From the IMG/VR virus record IMGVR_UViG_3300034283_000223, positions 1 through 34,632 of that record: 34,632 nt of DNA; one strand, 5' to 3'. This document shows, piece after piece, positions 28,388-34,632 of the stretch. The position numbers were made by a program, and so were the translations under genes. The stretch's first letter is position 1. The number at the start of each line of letters is the position of its first letter. The notes beneath the pieces are model-generated. The model was not told where the DNA came from. It did not search any database and worked only from the letters and a program-made list of their open reading frames with translations. The DNA is from a virus.

Positions 28388-28816
28388 ATGATAACAGAAA
28401 CAAAAAAACCAACTCTCAAAAACCTAATCGACTCAACCAACATCCCCGCATCACTTGTTCGAGGAGTAGTCCGTCAGATGGGCGGTTGGGAATCCTTCAA
28501 GCAATCCGCCCCCGACATCACACGCCACGGAATTAGCGGGGGCTTTCATGGATTCATTTACTATACTGACACGCTTCGCTTCGCCCATGCCCATAGAAAA
28601 GTGATTCTCGAAATGGCATCTCAGCAATCGAAAGAACTAGGATTTGGATTGGTCGAAATGATTAAGGGCTTTAGATGTATGGATGGTGCAACTGAAGCCG
28701 AGATTGTAGAGGGTTTAGCTGGCAACACCGACCAGACCCAAGTTCCGAACGGCCTCGCTTGGTATGCGGGTGAAGAAGTGGCAAGGGCTTACTGCGATAT
28801 GACGGAGGAGGCTTAA
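28388..28816 (+). CDS. DUF7222-type mobile-element protein
   Basis: 142 aa. MGGWESFKQSAPDITRHGIS, GGFHGFIYYTDTLRFAHAHR and GLAWYAGEEVARAYCDMTE match a family common on plasmids and phages (I believe DUF7222): MGGW-x-SF, HG-x-SGGF-x-GFIYY-x-DT, and a conserved WYA-x-EEVARAY end. Function is unknown. AAAGGAAACGACACAAT precedes the ATG, so a Shine-Dalgarno sequence is present. The next gene overlaps its stop in TAATG, with GGAGGAGG serving that gene. Confidence 0.75.
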   Translation: MITETKKPTLKNLIDSTNIPASLVRGVVRQMGGWESFKQSAPDITRHGISGGFHGFIYYTDTLRFAHAHRKVILEMASQQSKELGFGLVEMIKGFRCMDGATEAEIVEGLAGNTDQTQVPNGLAWYAGEEVARAYCDMTEEA

Positions 28817-28950
28817 TGATCTGCTTCTCCATCTACTCACGCAACGGCTCGTTTGTCTGCCGTTTTGATGACCGCAACAAAGCCGAAATGTGGAGAAAGT
28901 TTCACGGCATCCAAGAATATGTAATCAGAAAGGAGGTGTGGAATGATTAA
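28816..28950 (+). CDS. Small protein, 44 aa
   Basis: 44 codons: MICFSIYSRNGSFVCRFDDR, then NKAEMWRKFHGIQEYVIRKE. A GGAGGAGG precedes the TAATG start overlap. The alternating beta pattern followed by a helix, with an acid/basic tail, looks like a folded mini-protein. Its last 8 bases overlap the next gene, whose strong ribosome binding site AAGGAGG lies inside it. No family recognised. Confidence 0.6.
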   Translation: MICFSIYSRNGSFVCRFDDRNKAEMWRKFHGIQEYVIRKEVWND

Positions 28951-29026
28951 GGCATACACCATTTTGATGTTTGGGATCTTGCTTGGCTTGAGCCTAGCAA
29001 GCTGGATCGAGTTGGTCGGAAAATAA
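28943..29026 (+). CDS. Membrane micro-protein, 27 aa
   Basis: 27 codons from the ATG at 28943 with a near-perfect AAGGAGG six bases upstream. The product MIKAYTILMFGILLGLSLAS followed by WIELVGK is one hydrophobic span of about 18 residues with a short charged start and tail. The strength of the ribosome binding site argues that this is truly translated. A single-span micro-protein in an early operon could target a host membrane complex or act in superinfection control; not shown by sequence. Confidence 0.6.
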   Translation: MIKAYTILMFGILLGLSLASWIELVGK

Positions 29027-29031
29027 GTTTT

Positions 29032-29088
29032 CCCTCGTCCATCCTTTTAACCGAGGGTGGGAGAGGTCAAACTCGATAGAGATGACCT
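29032..29088 (+). promoter_or_regulatory. Two consecutive leader stem-loops
   Basis: CCCTCG (29032-29037) pairs with CGAGGG (29052-29057), and AGGTCA (29064-29069) pairs with TGACCT (29083-29088). Both stems are perfect 6-mers with loops of 14 and 13 bases, in the 94-base gap before the 53-aa gene. They could be an attenuator, a processing site or a protein-binding leader. No run of T follows, so a standard terminator is unlikely. Confidence 0.4.
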
Positions 29089-29120
29089 AAAGAAAAGTAA
29101 AAGAAAGGACACACGCTATA

Positions 29121-29282
29121 ATGAAGAGCAAAAAATACGATCAGTTGAAGTGGATACTTAATCTATTCGACCAGTTGTCGGATAAAAATTCCTATAAGCA
29201 ATATAGGAACGCAGTTCATTCTCTTGCCAATTATGCAAGCAAAGAGGTTGAGAAAATAGAAGGAAAGAAGGCGGGCAAATGA
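29121..29282 (+). CDS. Small protein, 53 aa
   Basis: Basic helical protein: MKSKKYDQLKWILNLFDQLS, DKNSYKQYRNAVHSLANYAS and KEVEKIEGKKAGK. AAAGGA lies about 12 bases before the ATG. The stop overlaps the next ATG (ATGA). Lys/Tyr/Asn content is unlike the fibre genes and typical of small early proteins. No family recognised. Confidence 0.6.
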   Translation: MKSKKYDQLKWILNLFDQLSDKNSYKQYRNAVHSLANYASKEVEKIEGKKAGK

Positions 29283-29455
29283 AGCACCCCAAGCAACTAG
29301 ATGAGGTTGGAATTACTGAAAGCTATTTAAGGAAGATGGCAAAGAAAGAAGGCGTATCCTATAAGAAGGCGGTACAGATAGCTATGGAACAATGGGGAGA
29401 GTATTCCCTAAAACTGATTAACAAGATTGTCGCGGAGGATATAAAGACAAGATAA
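29279..29455 (+). CDS. Small HTH/RHH-like protein, 58 aa
   Basis: 58 aa: VGITESYLRKMAKKEGVSYK followed by KAVQIAMEQWGEYSLKLINK. Two helices separated by EGVSY and the K-x-x-x-A-x-x-x-A spacing resemble a short helix-turn-helix or ribbon-helix-helix core, so a small DNA-binding regulator is possible. It overlaps the preceding gene in ATGA. The repeats in the region just downstream (29501-29812) might be its targets, which is speculation. Confidence 0.55.
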   Translation: MKHPKQLDEVGITESYLRKMAKKEGVSYKKAVQIAMEQWGEYSLKLINKIVAEDIKTR

Positions 29456-29500
29456 CAACACCGCCAAGGGTTCAATCCCCAAAGCTTTCGCATTCGCTAA

Positions 29501-29812
29501 CAAACGGCAGCCCAGGCATTCCGTCTTTACAAACGGAAGCTTGGCCTATAAGGACAATATAAAAATATGACAGAAGACGAAATTATCAAAGCCTACCTTT
29601 CGCGACTAGGTAAGAAAGGCGGATCTGTAAAAGGTCCTCAAAAGGTGCGACCAAAAGAACACTATCAGAAGGCGGTAGGAATACGTTGGGCTAAGTATCG
29701 GGAGCGTCAAACGGAAGCACAGGCATCCAAACGGTAGCGTAGCCTTTCGCGGGAGCGTTAGCCCTATAAGGGGTATATAGAACAGCCCTATAAGGGTGCT
29801 ATAAACGGCAGC
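29501..29812 (+). repeat. Short direct-repeat cluster, AAACGGnAGC and CCTATAAGG
   Basis: The decamer AAACGGnAGC occurs at 29502-29511, 29531-29540, 29709-29718, 29729-29738 and 29803-29812, with a degenerate relative at 29917-29926. CCTATAAGG occurs at 29545-29553, 29763-29771 and 29787-29795; the last two lie in a 24-base imperfect tandem unit beginning AGCCCTATAAGGG. The repeats flank and enter the last plus-strand gene and stop at the convergent gene end. Density above chance suggests protein-binding sites, an origin-associated array or a termination/processing region. Confidence 0.5.
29567..29737 (+). CDS. Small basic protein, 56 aa
   Basis: 56 aa: MTEDEIIKAYLSRLGKKGGS followed by VKGPQKVRPKEHYQKAVGIR and WAKYRERQTEAQASKR. 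The pattern AYLSxLGKKGG...K followed by a basic helix recurs in small proteins of phages and mobile elements, often suspected to bind DNA. AAGGA lies 12 bases before the ATG. Two AAACGGnAGC repeats fall in its last codons, so the repeats constrain, or come from, coding sequence. Last gene of the plus operon. Confidence 0.6.
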   Translation: MTEDEIIKAYLSRLGKKGGSVKGPQKVRPKEHYQKAVGIRWAKYRERQTEAQASKR

Positions 29813-30884: not shown

Positions 30885-31483
30885 TTGGCTTCCGTCTCCA
30901 TATCCCCATAAACTTCGCAATCCCAAACTGCGCCTACTATGCTTCCATCAAACAGCCTTTCAACAGCCTCAACCCACCCACCAACTTGGCAATCCTCCTT
31001 GATTTTGGCCACTATTTCGGCTGGGACTAGCTCGATTTGCCTCTCCTCGTTATCTGTCAACGACTTATCAATTTCTGGGACAGCTGGGACAGGTTTTCGC
31101 AACCCTATTTCACCCACGGGTGTATTACATAACGTATCTTTATTAGATACTATAAACTTTTCAAGCAGTGCGCGTAGGTTATAAAAAGGTGTCCCAATTG
31201 TCCCAGAATCCGCTTTCTTATCCCTTTTAGGACATGAAAACGGCTTAATGGCGATATACGACTTTGGCTTAGCAACGACCCCATCTCCAACCAGCTTGGC
31301 TATCATGGCTCGATGCGCCCTATCCCCGCGATACTTGGCACACCCGAACCTGCCGTCTTTGTATATGTATAGATGTTCCTTGCGGTTGTCTTGCCCAAGC
31401 GCAGCGCAAGCTGGACAGCCAGCCTTGATCCCGCCGTCTGCTGCATTCTTCACGTTATGCAACTTTGATATGTCTAGGCTCAA
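30881..31483 (-). CDS. Primase-type zinc-ribbon protein
   Basis: 200 aa. Residues 20-60 read AGCPACAALGQDNRKEHLYI, then YKDGRFGCAKYRGDRAHRAM: Cys23, Cys26, His37 and Cys48 make the CxxC...H...C site of phage primase zinc ribbons, which read template sequence. No TOPRIM or helicase motif follows; residues 60-200 are a polar linker and a helical tail. It is directly coupled to the prim-pol/helicase gene upstream, so the two may share one replication function split between proteins. An alternative is a regulatory protein using the same ribbon. Confidence 0.65.
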   Translation of the reverse strand: MSLDISKLHNVKNAADGGIKAGCPACAALGQDNRKEHLYIYKDGRFGCAKYRGDRAHRAMIAKLVGDGVVAKPKSYIAIKPFSCPKRDKKADSGTIGTPFYNLRALLEKFIVSNKDTLCNTPVGEIGLRKPVPAVPEIDKSLTDNEERQIELVPAEIVAKIKEDCQVGGWVEAVERLFDGSIVGAVWDCEVYGDMETEAK

Positions 31484-33468
31484 AACTCATCCCTCCTATG
31501 GCTTGCTCTGGATTGCCCTTGAACTGCCACATTCTTAAACCCTCTTGCATTCTTACCGCTTGGAGCCACAACCGAATGACTCTGGGTTGCGCCGTGTATG
31601 GCATACATCTGCTCATTTATGACTTTCTGGAGCCTAGCAAGCTCCATTGCAACCCACCTGCGCTCCGCACAATACTCTCCGTATAGGGTGATAAGCTCCT
31701 CATTGGTTATCTCAAATCCCTTGGCCTTTGTTACCTTTTCCTTGATGAAGTTTGTGACGCTGTCCGACTCCGCAAGCAGGCTGTTGACCTTCTGTATTTG
31801 CGGGCTGGCTAGGCGTATGTCTCCAGTCTCCCTCACATCCTTCAGCAACTCTCGGAACCCGCATAGGAACCAAGCCAATATCTCTGATCCTTCCTCCTCT
31901 ACCAGCTTGTCCGCAAGCCTATCAACCTTCTTGGCTGGTGGTGGATTGGTAAACTCAAGCAGCAACAACCTCCTGCCCCAAGCCTCAACATCACCTTCCA
32001 GCGCGACCTTGAGCCTTTCGTTGGACGTGATGAGGATATTGAATATGCCTTGCAGCACTACGCCATCATTAAGACCCTTGCCCTCCGCCTCCATCGTGTC
32101 TCCTCCAGTTAGCCCCTTGATGACCTTGGCTCCAGGGGTGGATAAGAAGTTGCCAGGCACGTCCGTTCCAGAGAGCAGTGTCTTGGCTCGAAACCTATAC
32201 AACTCAAACTGATTGTTGAGATGTCCAGTTCTGAGCGCGGCCATGTTGTGTTTGCCAACGATGTTTAGAACAATGTTGACCAGCGTTGACTTGCCTCCAC
32301 CAGCCTGCCCATACATCACCATGAATCTCTGGATGATATTTCTTCCGAACAAACACATCCCGCCGTACTTTTGAAACATCACCGCATCATCTGGATCACT
32401 GAATGTCGGACCAACCAGATCGGTCAAGAAGCGTTGTGGGATCTTATCAATGCCCTTGTACTCTATCGGCGATTGATTGCGCGAATAGAAGTCTGGGCTG
32501 AAGTCGTGTTCGCGTAGCTCTCCGTCATCATCAAAAGTAATATAGCTGTTGGCGCAATGCACACCTGGAATACCCTTGTTTATGAACGCATCCTGCACCT
32601 CCACCATGCCCCGCAACTGGCGGGTAATAGATGTGAGCAGCCTTTCACTCCTCATGTCTTGCGTTGACGGCTCGCCAATGTCTCTACCTACTTCCAGTAT
32701 GGATGAGCTTATCTCCTGCTTGATCGTGTCCTCGCTCTTAATGCCCCACAGTCCTGTCTCTGGATCGTACATATAAAACTTCTTCTCGGATGGCTCCCAC
32801 AGAATTTTGTTTTCGGTGTGATACTTCGCAGCCCAGAACGGCTCATTGATACCAACCAATGTTTGCGCCTCAGTTTCCGTATTGGTTCGGTACTTGAACG
32901 GCGCGCCCCAAGCCTCCTCCAACTCCTTGCATTTCTTTTTATGCTCATCATCCTTCCACGGCCTATTGGTATCCTCTGGCCAATTGATTTCGCTAAACTC
33001 AATCTCGACTGGAGCTGCCCCTCTTACTGGATATGTGTACTGGCATCCGCTTGGATGCGTTCCGTAAACTATTGTTTGCCCGCCATTACTTCTCCACTCA
33101 CCCCAATCCTCAGTGCCAGCCTTGATCTTAAATAGGTCTGGATACTCGCCCTTGATCTGCACCCAGAAGTTGCGACCTCTGGCTCCCTTGGTTTGGAATG
33201 TTGCGGCCAGCTTTGGATTAGCCTTCTCAAACTCTTCCGCCCTTGCATCGCTATCTACGTCAATGGAACACAGATTGGATGATGCCCTGCCCATCAGCAC
33301 GCCTATGTTTGATGCGAGCAACTTCTGAATATACTCGGTGCGGAGGGTTTCCTCGTACGCAATGTTTTGCCACCCAACCTGCACTGGACCCTTCATTCCT
33401 TTCGGAACAAGTAGGAATACTGGTTTACCCAAACGACAGCGTAAAGCTGTCAACATTTCTTCATTCAT
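31480..33468 (-). CDS. Prim-pol / SF3 helicase replication protein
   Basis: 662 aa from the ATG at 33468, preceded by AGAAAGG at 11 bases. The N-terminal bifunctional primase-polymerase part has NLCSIDVDSD (about 65-74, catalytic acids) and IVYGTHPSGCQYTYP (133-147, the conserved His). The C-terminal part is a D5/SF3-type helicase: Walker A MYGQAGGGKSTLVNIVLNI (about 385-403), a downstream GTDVPGNF, and ILITSNERLKV with Asn and Arg typical of the sensor region. Such proteins prime and unwind DNA at phage origins. The upstream frame extends to 33519 but is not needed. The structured region 33469-33720 lies immediately before it. Confidence 0.85.
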   Translation of the reverse strand: MNEEMLTALRCRLGKPVFLLVPKGMKGPVQVGWQNIAYEETLRTEYIQKLLASNIGVLMGRASSNLCSIDVDSDARAEEFEKANPKLAATFQTKGARGRNFWVQIKGEYPDLFKIKAGTEDWGEWRSNGGQTIVYGTHPSGCQYTYPVRGAAPVEIEFSEINWPEDTNRPWKDDEHKKKCKELEEAWGAPFKYRTNTETEAQTLVGINEPFWAAKYHTENKILWEPSEKKFYMYDPETGLWGIKSEDTIKQEISSSILEVGRDIGEPSTQDMRSERLLTSITRQLRGMVEVQDAFINKGIPGVHCANSYITFDDDGELREHDFSPDFYSRNQSPIEYKGIDKIPQRFLTDLVGPTFSDPDDAVMFQKYGGMCLFGRNIIQRFMVMYGQAGGGKSTLVNIVLNIVGKHNMAALRTGHLNNQFELYRFRAKTLLSGTDVPGNFLSTPGAKVIKGLTGGDTMEAEGKGLNDGVVLQGIFNILITSNERLKVALEGDVEAWGRRLLLLEFTNPPPAKKVDRLADKLVEEEGSEILAWFLCGFRELLKDVRETGDIRLASPQIQKVNSLLAESDSVTNFIKEKVTKAKGFEITNEELITLYGEYCAERRWVAMELARLQKVINEQMYAIHGATQSHSVVAPSGKNARGFKNVAVQGQSRASHRRDEF

Positions 33469-33591
33469 ATCACGATTTACCTTTCTGCTTATTTGTTTTG
33501 TATCACGATGTTCAACCACTGCAAGTGGTATCTGCTTTTACTTATTAAAATTTATGCCCCTTTGTTTCAAGTGGTAATCGTGATTACCAGC

Positions 33592-33608
33592 CGCAAGATC
33601 TCCTTGCG
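33592..33608 (-). repeat. Hairpin repeat copy A
   Basis: CGCAAG (33592-33597) and CTTGCG (33603-33608) form a 6-bp stem around ATCTC. The 15-base core GCAAGATCTCCTTGC and the flanking TACCA (33609-33613) recur in copy B. On the minus strand the stem-loop displays AAGGAG, a Shine-Dalgarno-like sequence. Relative to copy B, the closing pair is C-G instead of T-A. Confidence 0.6.
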
Positions 33609-33684
33609 TACCATTCGGGACATTGTATTCATAAAATTCAAACTGGCTCTGATTCAAGGGGTAGACACACTGAGGAAACGCCCG

Positions 33685-33703
33685 ATGCAAGATCTCCTTG
33701 CAT
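33685..33703 (-). repeat. Hairpin repeat copy B
   Basis: ATGCAAG (33685-33691) and CTTGCAT (33697-33703) form a 7-bp stem around ATCTC, 94 bases from copy A and in the same orientation. Core and loop are identical to copy A. The pair next to the core is T-A here and C-G there, a compensatory change that keeps the stem. This favours selection on structure. Confidence 0.6.
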
Positions 33704-33720
33704 ACCACAACGCCAGTTAG

Positions 33721-34632
33721 TTATTTGTTTTCTAGCTCAATCGCCTTTCTGGATGCAAGCACAATATCTTCGGCGGTAATATTCCGCAGAGCGTTGCACC
33801 AGTATTGAGTCTTCGGGGTGCGATTACTCGCATCCTTACACTTCGCCTGCGGCAACCCAGCGTGCGGTCGGCAAGGCGCGTGTGGACAGGTATCGGGCTT
33901 GAACACCGATACGTTCTTGGGATAAAAACTCATACGATCTTTTGGATCGTAGCTGCCCCACAGCGACACACACGGTGTATCCAATCCAGCAGCCATATGG
34001 TTGACACTGCTATCTGGTGCAACAACAAAGTCAGCCCCGCTGATAATCGGGAACAGCGAGCGCACAGCCTTGGTGCAGTTAAATAGATCAATCACTCTCG
34101 GATGATCCACTTTAAAGTTGTTGCTGTTATCCAGCCCAATGATGACAGCGTGATGTTTGGGGTAAGCTTCTAGCAACGCCAGCACCGCCTCCTGCCCCAT
34201 CGTTGGCGGGTAGGTGCGGGTCGGACCACTGGACGAAACGTGGTAGGCAAAGAACGGACTAGGCAACGGCCACTTGCCCATCGCCTTCAACTCTTCGTGG
34301 TCTGGCTCGATGAGATGTAGAACTGGCTTACAATACTTAGCCATCGTCTTCTCATCCCAAACCCCCATCCACTCGTAGATGCGCTGGTAGCAGTTGCCAG
34401 GACCAGTGCCTAGCTTCGTGTTGCCAACCTGCCCGCTGAACAGATCGTCAGTCGGTAGGTGTGCGTCAAAAGAATCCCAAGCCTCTAGCGATGCAGGCAA
34501 CGGCCACAGCTTTGCACCCAACCCAGCGTAGAGAGGTAGGTTGCGAGCAGGTGCGTAAACCTCCACAACCCCGCCCGACTCCTGCACCAAGTAGTTGACG
34601 AAGGCGGTAGCAATGATCGCGTCACCAATTGC
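33721..34632 (-). CDS. GT9-family glycosyltransferase, N-terminus cut by window edge
   Basis: The frame is open to the window edge (303 residues visible) and its first residues AIGDAIIATAFVNYLVQES are the Gly-Asp loop at the start of GT9 (ADP-heptose:LPS heptosyltransferase-like) enzymes, so only a few N-terminal residues are missing. The nucleotide-sugar site is ISGADFVVAPDSSVNHMAAG, followed by LDTPCVSLWGSYDPKDR. A Cys-rich tail CPHAPCRPHAGLPQAKC is seen in a GT9 subset. It would transfer a heptose or related sugar, either to host surface glycans or to a phage glycan. Whether it is transcribed with the primase operon is unclear because the repeat region lies between them. Confidence 0.75.
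   Translation of the reverse strand, partial: AIGDAIIATAFVNYLVQESGGVVEVYAPARNLPLYAGLGAKLWPLPASLEAWDSFDAHLPTDDLFSGQVGNTKLGTGPGNCYQRIYEWMGVWDEKTMAKYCKPVLHLIEPDHEELKAMGKWPLPSPFFAYHVSSSGPTRTYPPTMGQEAVLALLEAYPKHHAVIIGLDNSNNFKVDHPRVIDLFNCTKAVRSLFPIISGADFVVAPDSSVNHMAAGLDTPCVSLWGSYDPKDRMSFYPKNVSVFKPDTCPHAPCRPHAGLPQAKCKDASNRTPKTQYWCNALRNITAEDIVLASRKAIELENK

Follow-up and report, generated by a model that had tools for sequence, protein, structure and literature searches.

The locus raises the question of what occupies the 252-bp gap between two minus-strand genes of an uncultivated virus, namely a glycosyltransferase-9-like (GT9) gene and a primase-helicase gene. The window, that is, the whole stretch of DNA that was analysed, is a 34.6-kb IMG/VR virus record (34,632 nt). 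The original prediction regarded the gap as a structured, repeat-rich leader or origin, and its observations on the letters were reproduced. Within the window the 15-base core GCAAGATCTCCTTGC is confined to two places, 33593-33607 and 33687-33701, and the pair flanking it changes from T-A to C-G as had been described. Three copies of ATCACGAT (33469, 33502 and, inverted, 33577) and two of CAAGTGGTA (33522, 33568) are present, each having one further occurrence in the window outside the gap. GTAATCACGATTAC is an inverted repeat, and all the listed hairpins were found in the gap. The statement that the gap holds more structure than any other intergenic space fails by energy, the z value of the 252-nt gap against shuffles being -0.05. 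Since the gap folds no better than shuffled sequence, energy alone would have dismissed it; the structure predicted for the gap was proved by covariation among aligned sequences, not by energy.

The gap (33469-33720) holds two tandem minus-strand copies, E1 and E2, of one element of about 75 nt, whose coordinates are shown in the Table. The order of its parts is a closing stem P1, AUGGU, the P2 hairpin with a GAGAN loop, a variable P3 hairpin, (A/U)UGAAACA, and P1'. That is, the element is a three-way junction closed by P1, with conserved AUGGU and UGAAACA strands. The GAGAN loop is GNRA-like, and a non-canonical G.A pair lies beneath P2. In the window's own family the aligned order is P1, AUGGU, P2 with a GAGAU loop, P3, UUGAAACA and P1', and the variants met in model searches and relatives were GAGAC, GAGAG and GAGAA loops, AUGAAACA, and an A-U replacing a G-C pair. 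The two 15-mers described above are the P2 hairpins of E1 and E2, and the 8-bp palindrome is P3 of E2. When E2 was folded alone, energy folding gave the family structure (z -3.04); for E1 alone it did not clearly do so (z -1.0).

Table. Features of the window, with the parts of the two element copies.
Feature	Coordinates	Strand	Evidence or remark
Upstream gene, GT9-like	33721..34632	-	PF01075, E 6.5e-8; truncated at window end
E1 (element copy 1)	33638..33718	-	R1 62.5 bits, E 7e-17
E1 P1	33718-33712 with 33647-33641	-	
E1 UGGU	33707-33704	-	
E1 P2	33702-33697 with 33691-33686	-	GAGAU loop 33696-33692
E1 P3 core	33683-33681 with 33661-33659	-	
E1 strand UUGAAUCA	33657-33650	-	
AUG-opened 21-codon frame, a few nt past E1, into E2 (MNTMSRMVRKEILRLVITITT)	33567..33632	-	sequence
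E2 (element copy 2)	33551..33623	-	R1 75.8 bits, E 5.3e-21
E2 P1	33623-33617 with 33560-33554	-	
E2 UGGU	33613-33610	-	
E2 P2	33608-33603 with 33597-33592	-	GAGAU loop 33602-33598
E2 P3	33589-33583 with 33578-33572	-	
E2 strand UUGAAACA	33570-33563	-	
Downstream gene, Prim-Pol/DUF5906/D5_N-type primase-helicase	31480..33468	-	Pfam PF09250, PF19263, PF08706 and PHROG DNA primase
DUF7222 protein, 142 aa	28388-28816	+	in plus-strand ORF block

In an alignment of 46 sequences, 88% of the cells of the 18-pair structure were paired, as compared with 67% in shuffled and at most 48% in slid alignments, and double changes were present in 16 of the 18 model pairs. Among 49 more distant viral sequences the value was 97% against 57% in shuffles; P1 had been used to select this set, no match was lost to the P2 filter, and P3 took no part in the selection. 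For 108 diverse sequences aligned to the model the paired cells amounted to 94%, against 56% shuffled and at most 46% slid, a model-fitted alignment of this kind leaning towards the model's own structure. In a blind mutual-information scan of the same 108 sequences, no other pair of columns ranked as high as any of the 17 variable model pairs. The next rank was taken by the non-canonical G.A/A.G pair below P2, and the scan gave no further helix or pseudoknot in this alignment. Because the search patterns prescribed AUGGU, GAGA and UGAAACA, the invariance of these strings among pattern matches is no evidence. Covariation was very strong for the stems of the element, and the claim of a structured leader or RNA element was supported: immediately ahead of the replication module stands an RNA structure that is conserved and covaries.

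We also built a covariance model, R2, only from viruses outside the window's family. In a 0.9-Mb search R2 recovered both copies, scoring E2 at 43.7 bits (E 1.6e-9) and E1 at 27.9 bits (E 9.7e-5), and this independent recall places both copies in the three-way-junction family. R1 matched exactly E1 and E2 in the window, the next-best match having an E of 3.6. Rfam 15 returned no family at the gathering threshold for the whole window and nine element-bearing loci, and at relaxed E it gave only chance-level matches on the element (RT-17, E 0.59). Against isolate phages, a BLASTN search with the gap found chance matches only, and a plasmid search with the element gave zero matches. Literature searches yielded no specific described equivalent; most subscription papers lay outside these searches and an earlier description is possible. 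Judged from its sequences, the element is a new RNA family, present in no RNA catalogue that was searched. The finding of a new conserved RNA motif is a known kind of discovery; the combination of in-ORF, leader and tRNA-array copies is unusual.

The junction itself was then followed in relatives of the virus. Sixteen IMG/VR loci encode near-identical primases. A 15-mer scan and BLAST of the gap gave about 50 contigs that match the first ~100 bp only (up to 100% identity) and then continue with different genes. Retention was counted in 80 loci fetched by the GT9 protein, not by the element, and the element with its hairpins was kept at the junction in 79 of the 79 testable relatives, the 80th contig ending inside the preceding gene. 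The flanking genes were swapped on both sides. The gene order was GT9, 0-2 optional genes, E1, and then one of two replication arrangements. One of them has E2 and the Prim-Pol module, with or without an extra gene. In the other, which lacks E2, E1 is followed by a split replication module of another kind that begins with one of several optional genes; here a true gene's AUG stands 3-14 nt after P1. E1 is near-identical beside unrelated replication modules, a gene-swap hot spot lies immediately 3' of it, and in the window's family the element marks a fixed joint for the exchange of replication modules. In one relative (L015/L072, IMGVR_UViG_3300042905_001227) a PAPS-reductase-like gene of 255 aa stands between E1 and E2; the same gene directly follows E1 in L095, L036, L126 and L133, and other genes (c19, c58, c105) replace it elsewhere. 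A gene-cassette/attC reading prompted by L015/L072 was dropped, as the swapped genes carry no copies of their own.

In the window, the stop codon of the GT9-like gene is 2 nt before P1 of E1. A coding reading of the 56-codon frame across the gap was abandoned: the frame is not conserved, with indels, frameshifts and stops in relatives (L007, L008, L010, L011, L012, L013, L006, L014). Of the two outcomes that the original prediction had named as refuting it, a lack of the hairpins in relatives and codon-level conservation of this frame, neither was observed. The protein of the 21-codon frame in the Table is not conserved either, and an AUG shortly after E1 recurs in relatives. The original prediction further noted AAGGAG in the hairpins and suggested that a ribosome binding site might be sequestered there. 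AAGGAG proved to be only one version of the P2 stem, others being AAG/CTT, AGG/CCT and CCATGG among further ones, and the conserved part is the GAGAN loop. Since the stem covaries freely and the loop is conserved, no Shine-Dalgarno sequence is kept, and sequestration of a ribosome binding site is not supported.

Copies of the element were found in hundreds of environmental viral contigs; one looser viral scan brought in 51 contigs, and another brought in over 120. At least 5 of the 6 P2 pairs are present in every one of the 164 matches to the pattern tested. The aligned matches to the element number 434, of which 237 are distinct. Virus records of 7-233 kb hold 1-3 copies each. On one viral contig (L322:2898-4267) three copies lie within 1.4 kb, two of them only ~20 nt apart. 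Cellular copies are rare and belong to Verrucomicrobiota, Planctomycetota and one thaumarchaeal lineage. In large genome searches, whose stricter filters lose weak matches, copies were present in 3 of 188 genomes of the class of a Spartobacteria genome and 2 of 246 of the phylum of a Phycisphaerae genome, and three other phyla gave none (0/299, 0/296 and 0/141). In a genome search 5 of 26 matches folded properly, and the remaining ones are chance. Most of the bacterial copies examined look prophage-like. The thaumarchaeal family provides one genome with five copies, one with at least 11 and a third with a single copy; among 200 sampled genomes of that phylum no others have any.

The settings of these copies vary. 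Of the viral copies between genes, 71 had two neighbours; 56 of these had an upstream gene, and 49 a downstream gene, in their own orientation. Intergenic viral copies lie a median of 16.5 nt from the co-oriented upstream stop, and only about a third of the co-oriented downstream genes start within 30 nt. Twelve of 150 distinct elements have a tRNA no more than 60 nt away, and typically stand on its 5' side at a distance of 2-10 nt; in L405 copies are lodged between tRNAs. A tRNA-only role was dropped on the same count.

Other copies lie inside reading frames, in frame and in the sense orientation. They occur in Mu-type portal proteins (L457, L370), in terminase-like proteins (L317, L310), in the L443 family and in L427. 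The name terminase-like was assigned from sequence and context, Pfam giving no match. Terminase-like relatives of ~76% identity lack the insert in the same acidic linker, which gives an occupied and an empty site; one in-ORF copy (L477) has decayed. In-frame insertion was thus seen in four unrelated host-ORF families, none of them containing the window copies. The peptide frame differs, being GMVSGENPE... in terminase-like copies as against NGxQGDPAT... in the portal and L443-type copies, and intergenic copies shift frame via P3 indels, so no encoded peptide is conserved across all copies. Wherever the host gene examined was trustworthy, the element had the sense orientation, as it did in most intergenic copies; few independent ORF families stand behind this bias. 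Antisense copies in large ORFs of GC-rich contigs were judged to lie in shadow ORFs: these ORFs have GC-rich first codon positions, which is what shadows of opposite-strand genes would be expected to show. Peptides of the L443 family read NGTQGDPAAG or NGVQGDPATG, except in L533 and L535-L537, where the sequence is NDVQGDPAMG. In these four the G-C below P2 has become A-U; that is, the pair is kept and two residues are altered. This pair-preserving change, the sense orientation and the covariation of P2 and P3 together argue for a function at the RNA level.

The archaeal copies lie mostly 150-370 nt after anchored PQQ-dehydrogenase genes, and three such genes in tandem have one copy after each. 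A few have no co-oriented neighbour gene. The lineage (L295, L291, L292, L297, L298, L299; L268-L271) has expanded anchored PQQ-dehydrogenase genes, and most of these genes have after them a copy with a long, near-perfect P1 (GGAGGCTAGGAG / CTCCTAGCCTCC). A 3'-UTR or stand-alone role is possible for them; copies so placed, some without neighbours, do not suggest antitermination or a 5' leader.

We think, with a probability of roughly 0.6, that the element would be a self-contained sense-strand RNA module acting in cis in phage transcripts. In this mechanism P1 would zip the element shut, so that it may be tolerated between stop and start codons, between tRNAs and inside reading frames, and a conserved RNA-binding protein or cellular machine would recognise the conserved core. 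In the window phage the element may serve as the leader module of the replication operon, whichever replication genes come next. The varied settings disfavour a duty tied to one gene type and make an origin, a simple RBS switch or strict tRNA processing unlikely. Our first choice is that the cis signal could be antitermination-like or a signal for processing or stability. The likeliest single mechanism would be a co-transcriptional signal such as RNA-driven processive antitermination, with about one chance in three. A broader reading, which we offer tentatively, is a new class of position-independent phage RNA device, found in leaders, in tRNA operons or within structural genes. In viruses that infect PVC bacteria, and in one lineage of archaea, it would engage either a conserved machine of the host or a defence that senses RNA; it may work as an antiterminator, as a processing or stability signal, or as a decoy.

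The main rival, which we regard as unlikely yet serious, is a selfish palindromic mobile element of the RPE or MITE kind that spreads between and within phage genes, its fold serving mobility or tolerance after insertion. It would account for many of the same facts, such as the in-frame copies in portal, terminase-like and other ORFs, the occupied and empty sites with one decayed copy, and the many copies in one archaeal lineage. However, a virus record holds only 1-3 copies, retention at one junction is complete (79/79), the conservation of stems and core far exceeds the need of terminal inverted repeats, and neither a target duplication nor a transposase was identified. In the outline given by a review, RPEs are ~150 bp, occur in many copies per Rickettsia genome and each have a conserved encoded peptide (Ogata 2000, reviewed PMC10969869). 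As outlined there, they resemble the element in being small inverted repeats found in frame inside unrelated protein-coding genes and elsewhere (PMC10969869). The element differs from them in its size of ~75 nt, in its occurrence mainly in phages (1-3 copies in each record), in its covarying three-way junction and in P3 lengths that fail to preserve the frame outside ORFs, and it has no universal peptide.

A new self-cleaving ribozyme processing phage transcripts, like theta or hammerhead ribozymes, is improbable. The compact junction with conserved unpaired strands, the phage setting and the lack of a fixed gene partner would suit it, and placement beside tRNAs recalls theta ribozymes, which are HDV-like, occur in gut phages and cut at tRNA 3' ends (PMC10879173). 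Theta ribozymes too are small phage RNAs often beside phage tRNAs and widespread in viral metagenomes (PMC10879173). The element differs in being an open three-way junction, mostly 5' of tRNAs and not at their 3' ends, and also in ORFs. Copies in essential genes disfavour this reading, as those in portal and terminase-like ORFs would cut essential mRNAs. Moreover, the consensus has neither the CUGANGA...GAAA core nor a nested double pseudoknot, no extra helix covaries, and Rfam ribozyme families did not match the element. A 5' leader of a riboswitch-like or translational type, which would fix initiation at the AUG right behind P1, is very improbable. The AUG spacing in the window's family, with no Shine-Dalgarno sequence kept, and the tandem copies agree with it, whereas in other viruses only 49 of 71 intergenic copies have a co-oriented downstream gene, mostly starting beyond 30 nt, and the archaeal, tRNA-array and in-ORF copies do not fit. 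Least credible is the replication origin of the original prediction, or a primase start site made of iterons and hairpins for the adjacent Prim-Pol primase. The element does adjoin replication modules of several kinds, and in a Spartobacteria contig a copy precedes an AAA_25-domain ORF by 60 nt. Against this, the near-identical E1 accompanies unrelated replication modules, and copies of the element also adjoin tRNAs, lie within portal and terminase-like ORFs and follow PQQ-dehydrogenase genes in archaea. The coarse GC-skew profile has no local switch at the gap. An iteron-type origin was also dropped on the short direct repeats, which are not conserved: the two ATCACGAT copies outside E2 are kept in close relatives only and are absent in L074, L186, L129 and L109, from which the ATCGTGAT repeats are likewise missing.

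A cis-acting RNA module has known counterparts in phages. The HK022 put RNA consists of two stem-loops and directs processive antitermination, and lambda boxB is a lone hairpin next to boxA with a GNRA-like pentaloop. Like put and boxB/nut, the element is a phage cis RNA of similar size on the sense strand, and its GAGAN loop resembles the boxB pentaloop; unlike them, it is a three-way junction. A covarying RNA in hundreds of viral contigs that is absent from Rfam must do something specific with its core. The phages concerned have poorly studied hosts (Verrucomicrobiota, Planctomycetota), and a thaumarchaeal lineage is also involved. Because one and the same small module is shared by leaders, tRNA arrays and coding regions, a biochemical test on one copy would inform on many phages, and the alignments and coordinates render its function directly testable.

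A weak, divergent candidate was seen in Microcystis phage Mwe-Yong1318-1 (OR083034.1; L462:2487-2560), with 20 bits and without AUGGU, in a 440-bp gap one gene upstream of the small terminase gene. It came from consensus queries and is not counted as a family member; if real, it would provide a laboratory system. Elsewhere in the window, ORFs at 28388-29737 form a short plus-strand block in which the AT skew becomes positive, the genome being minus-strand otherwise; this block is likely an early or regulatory region.
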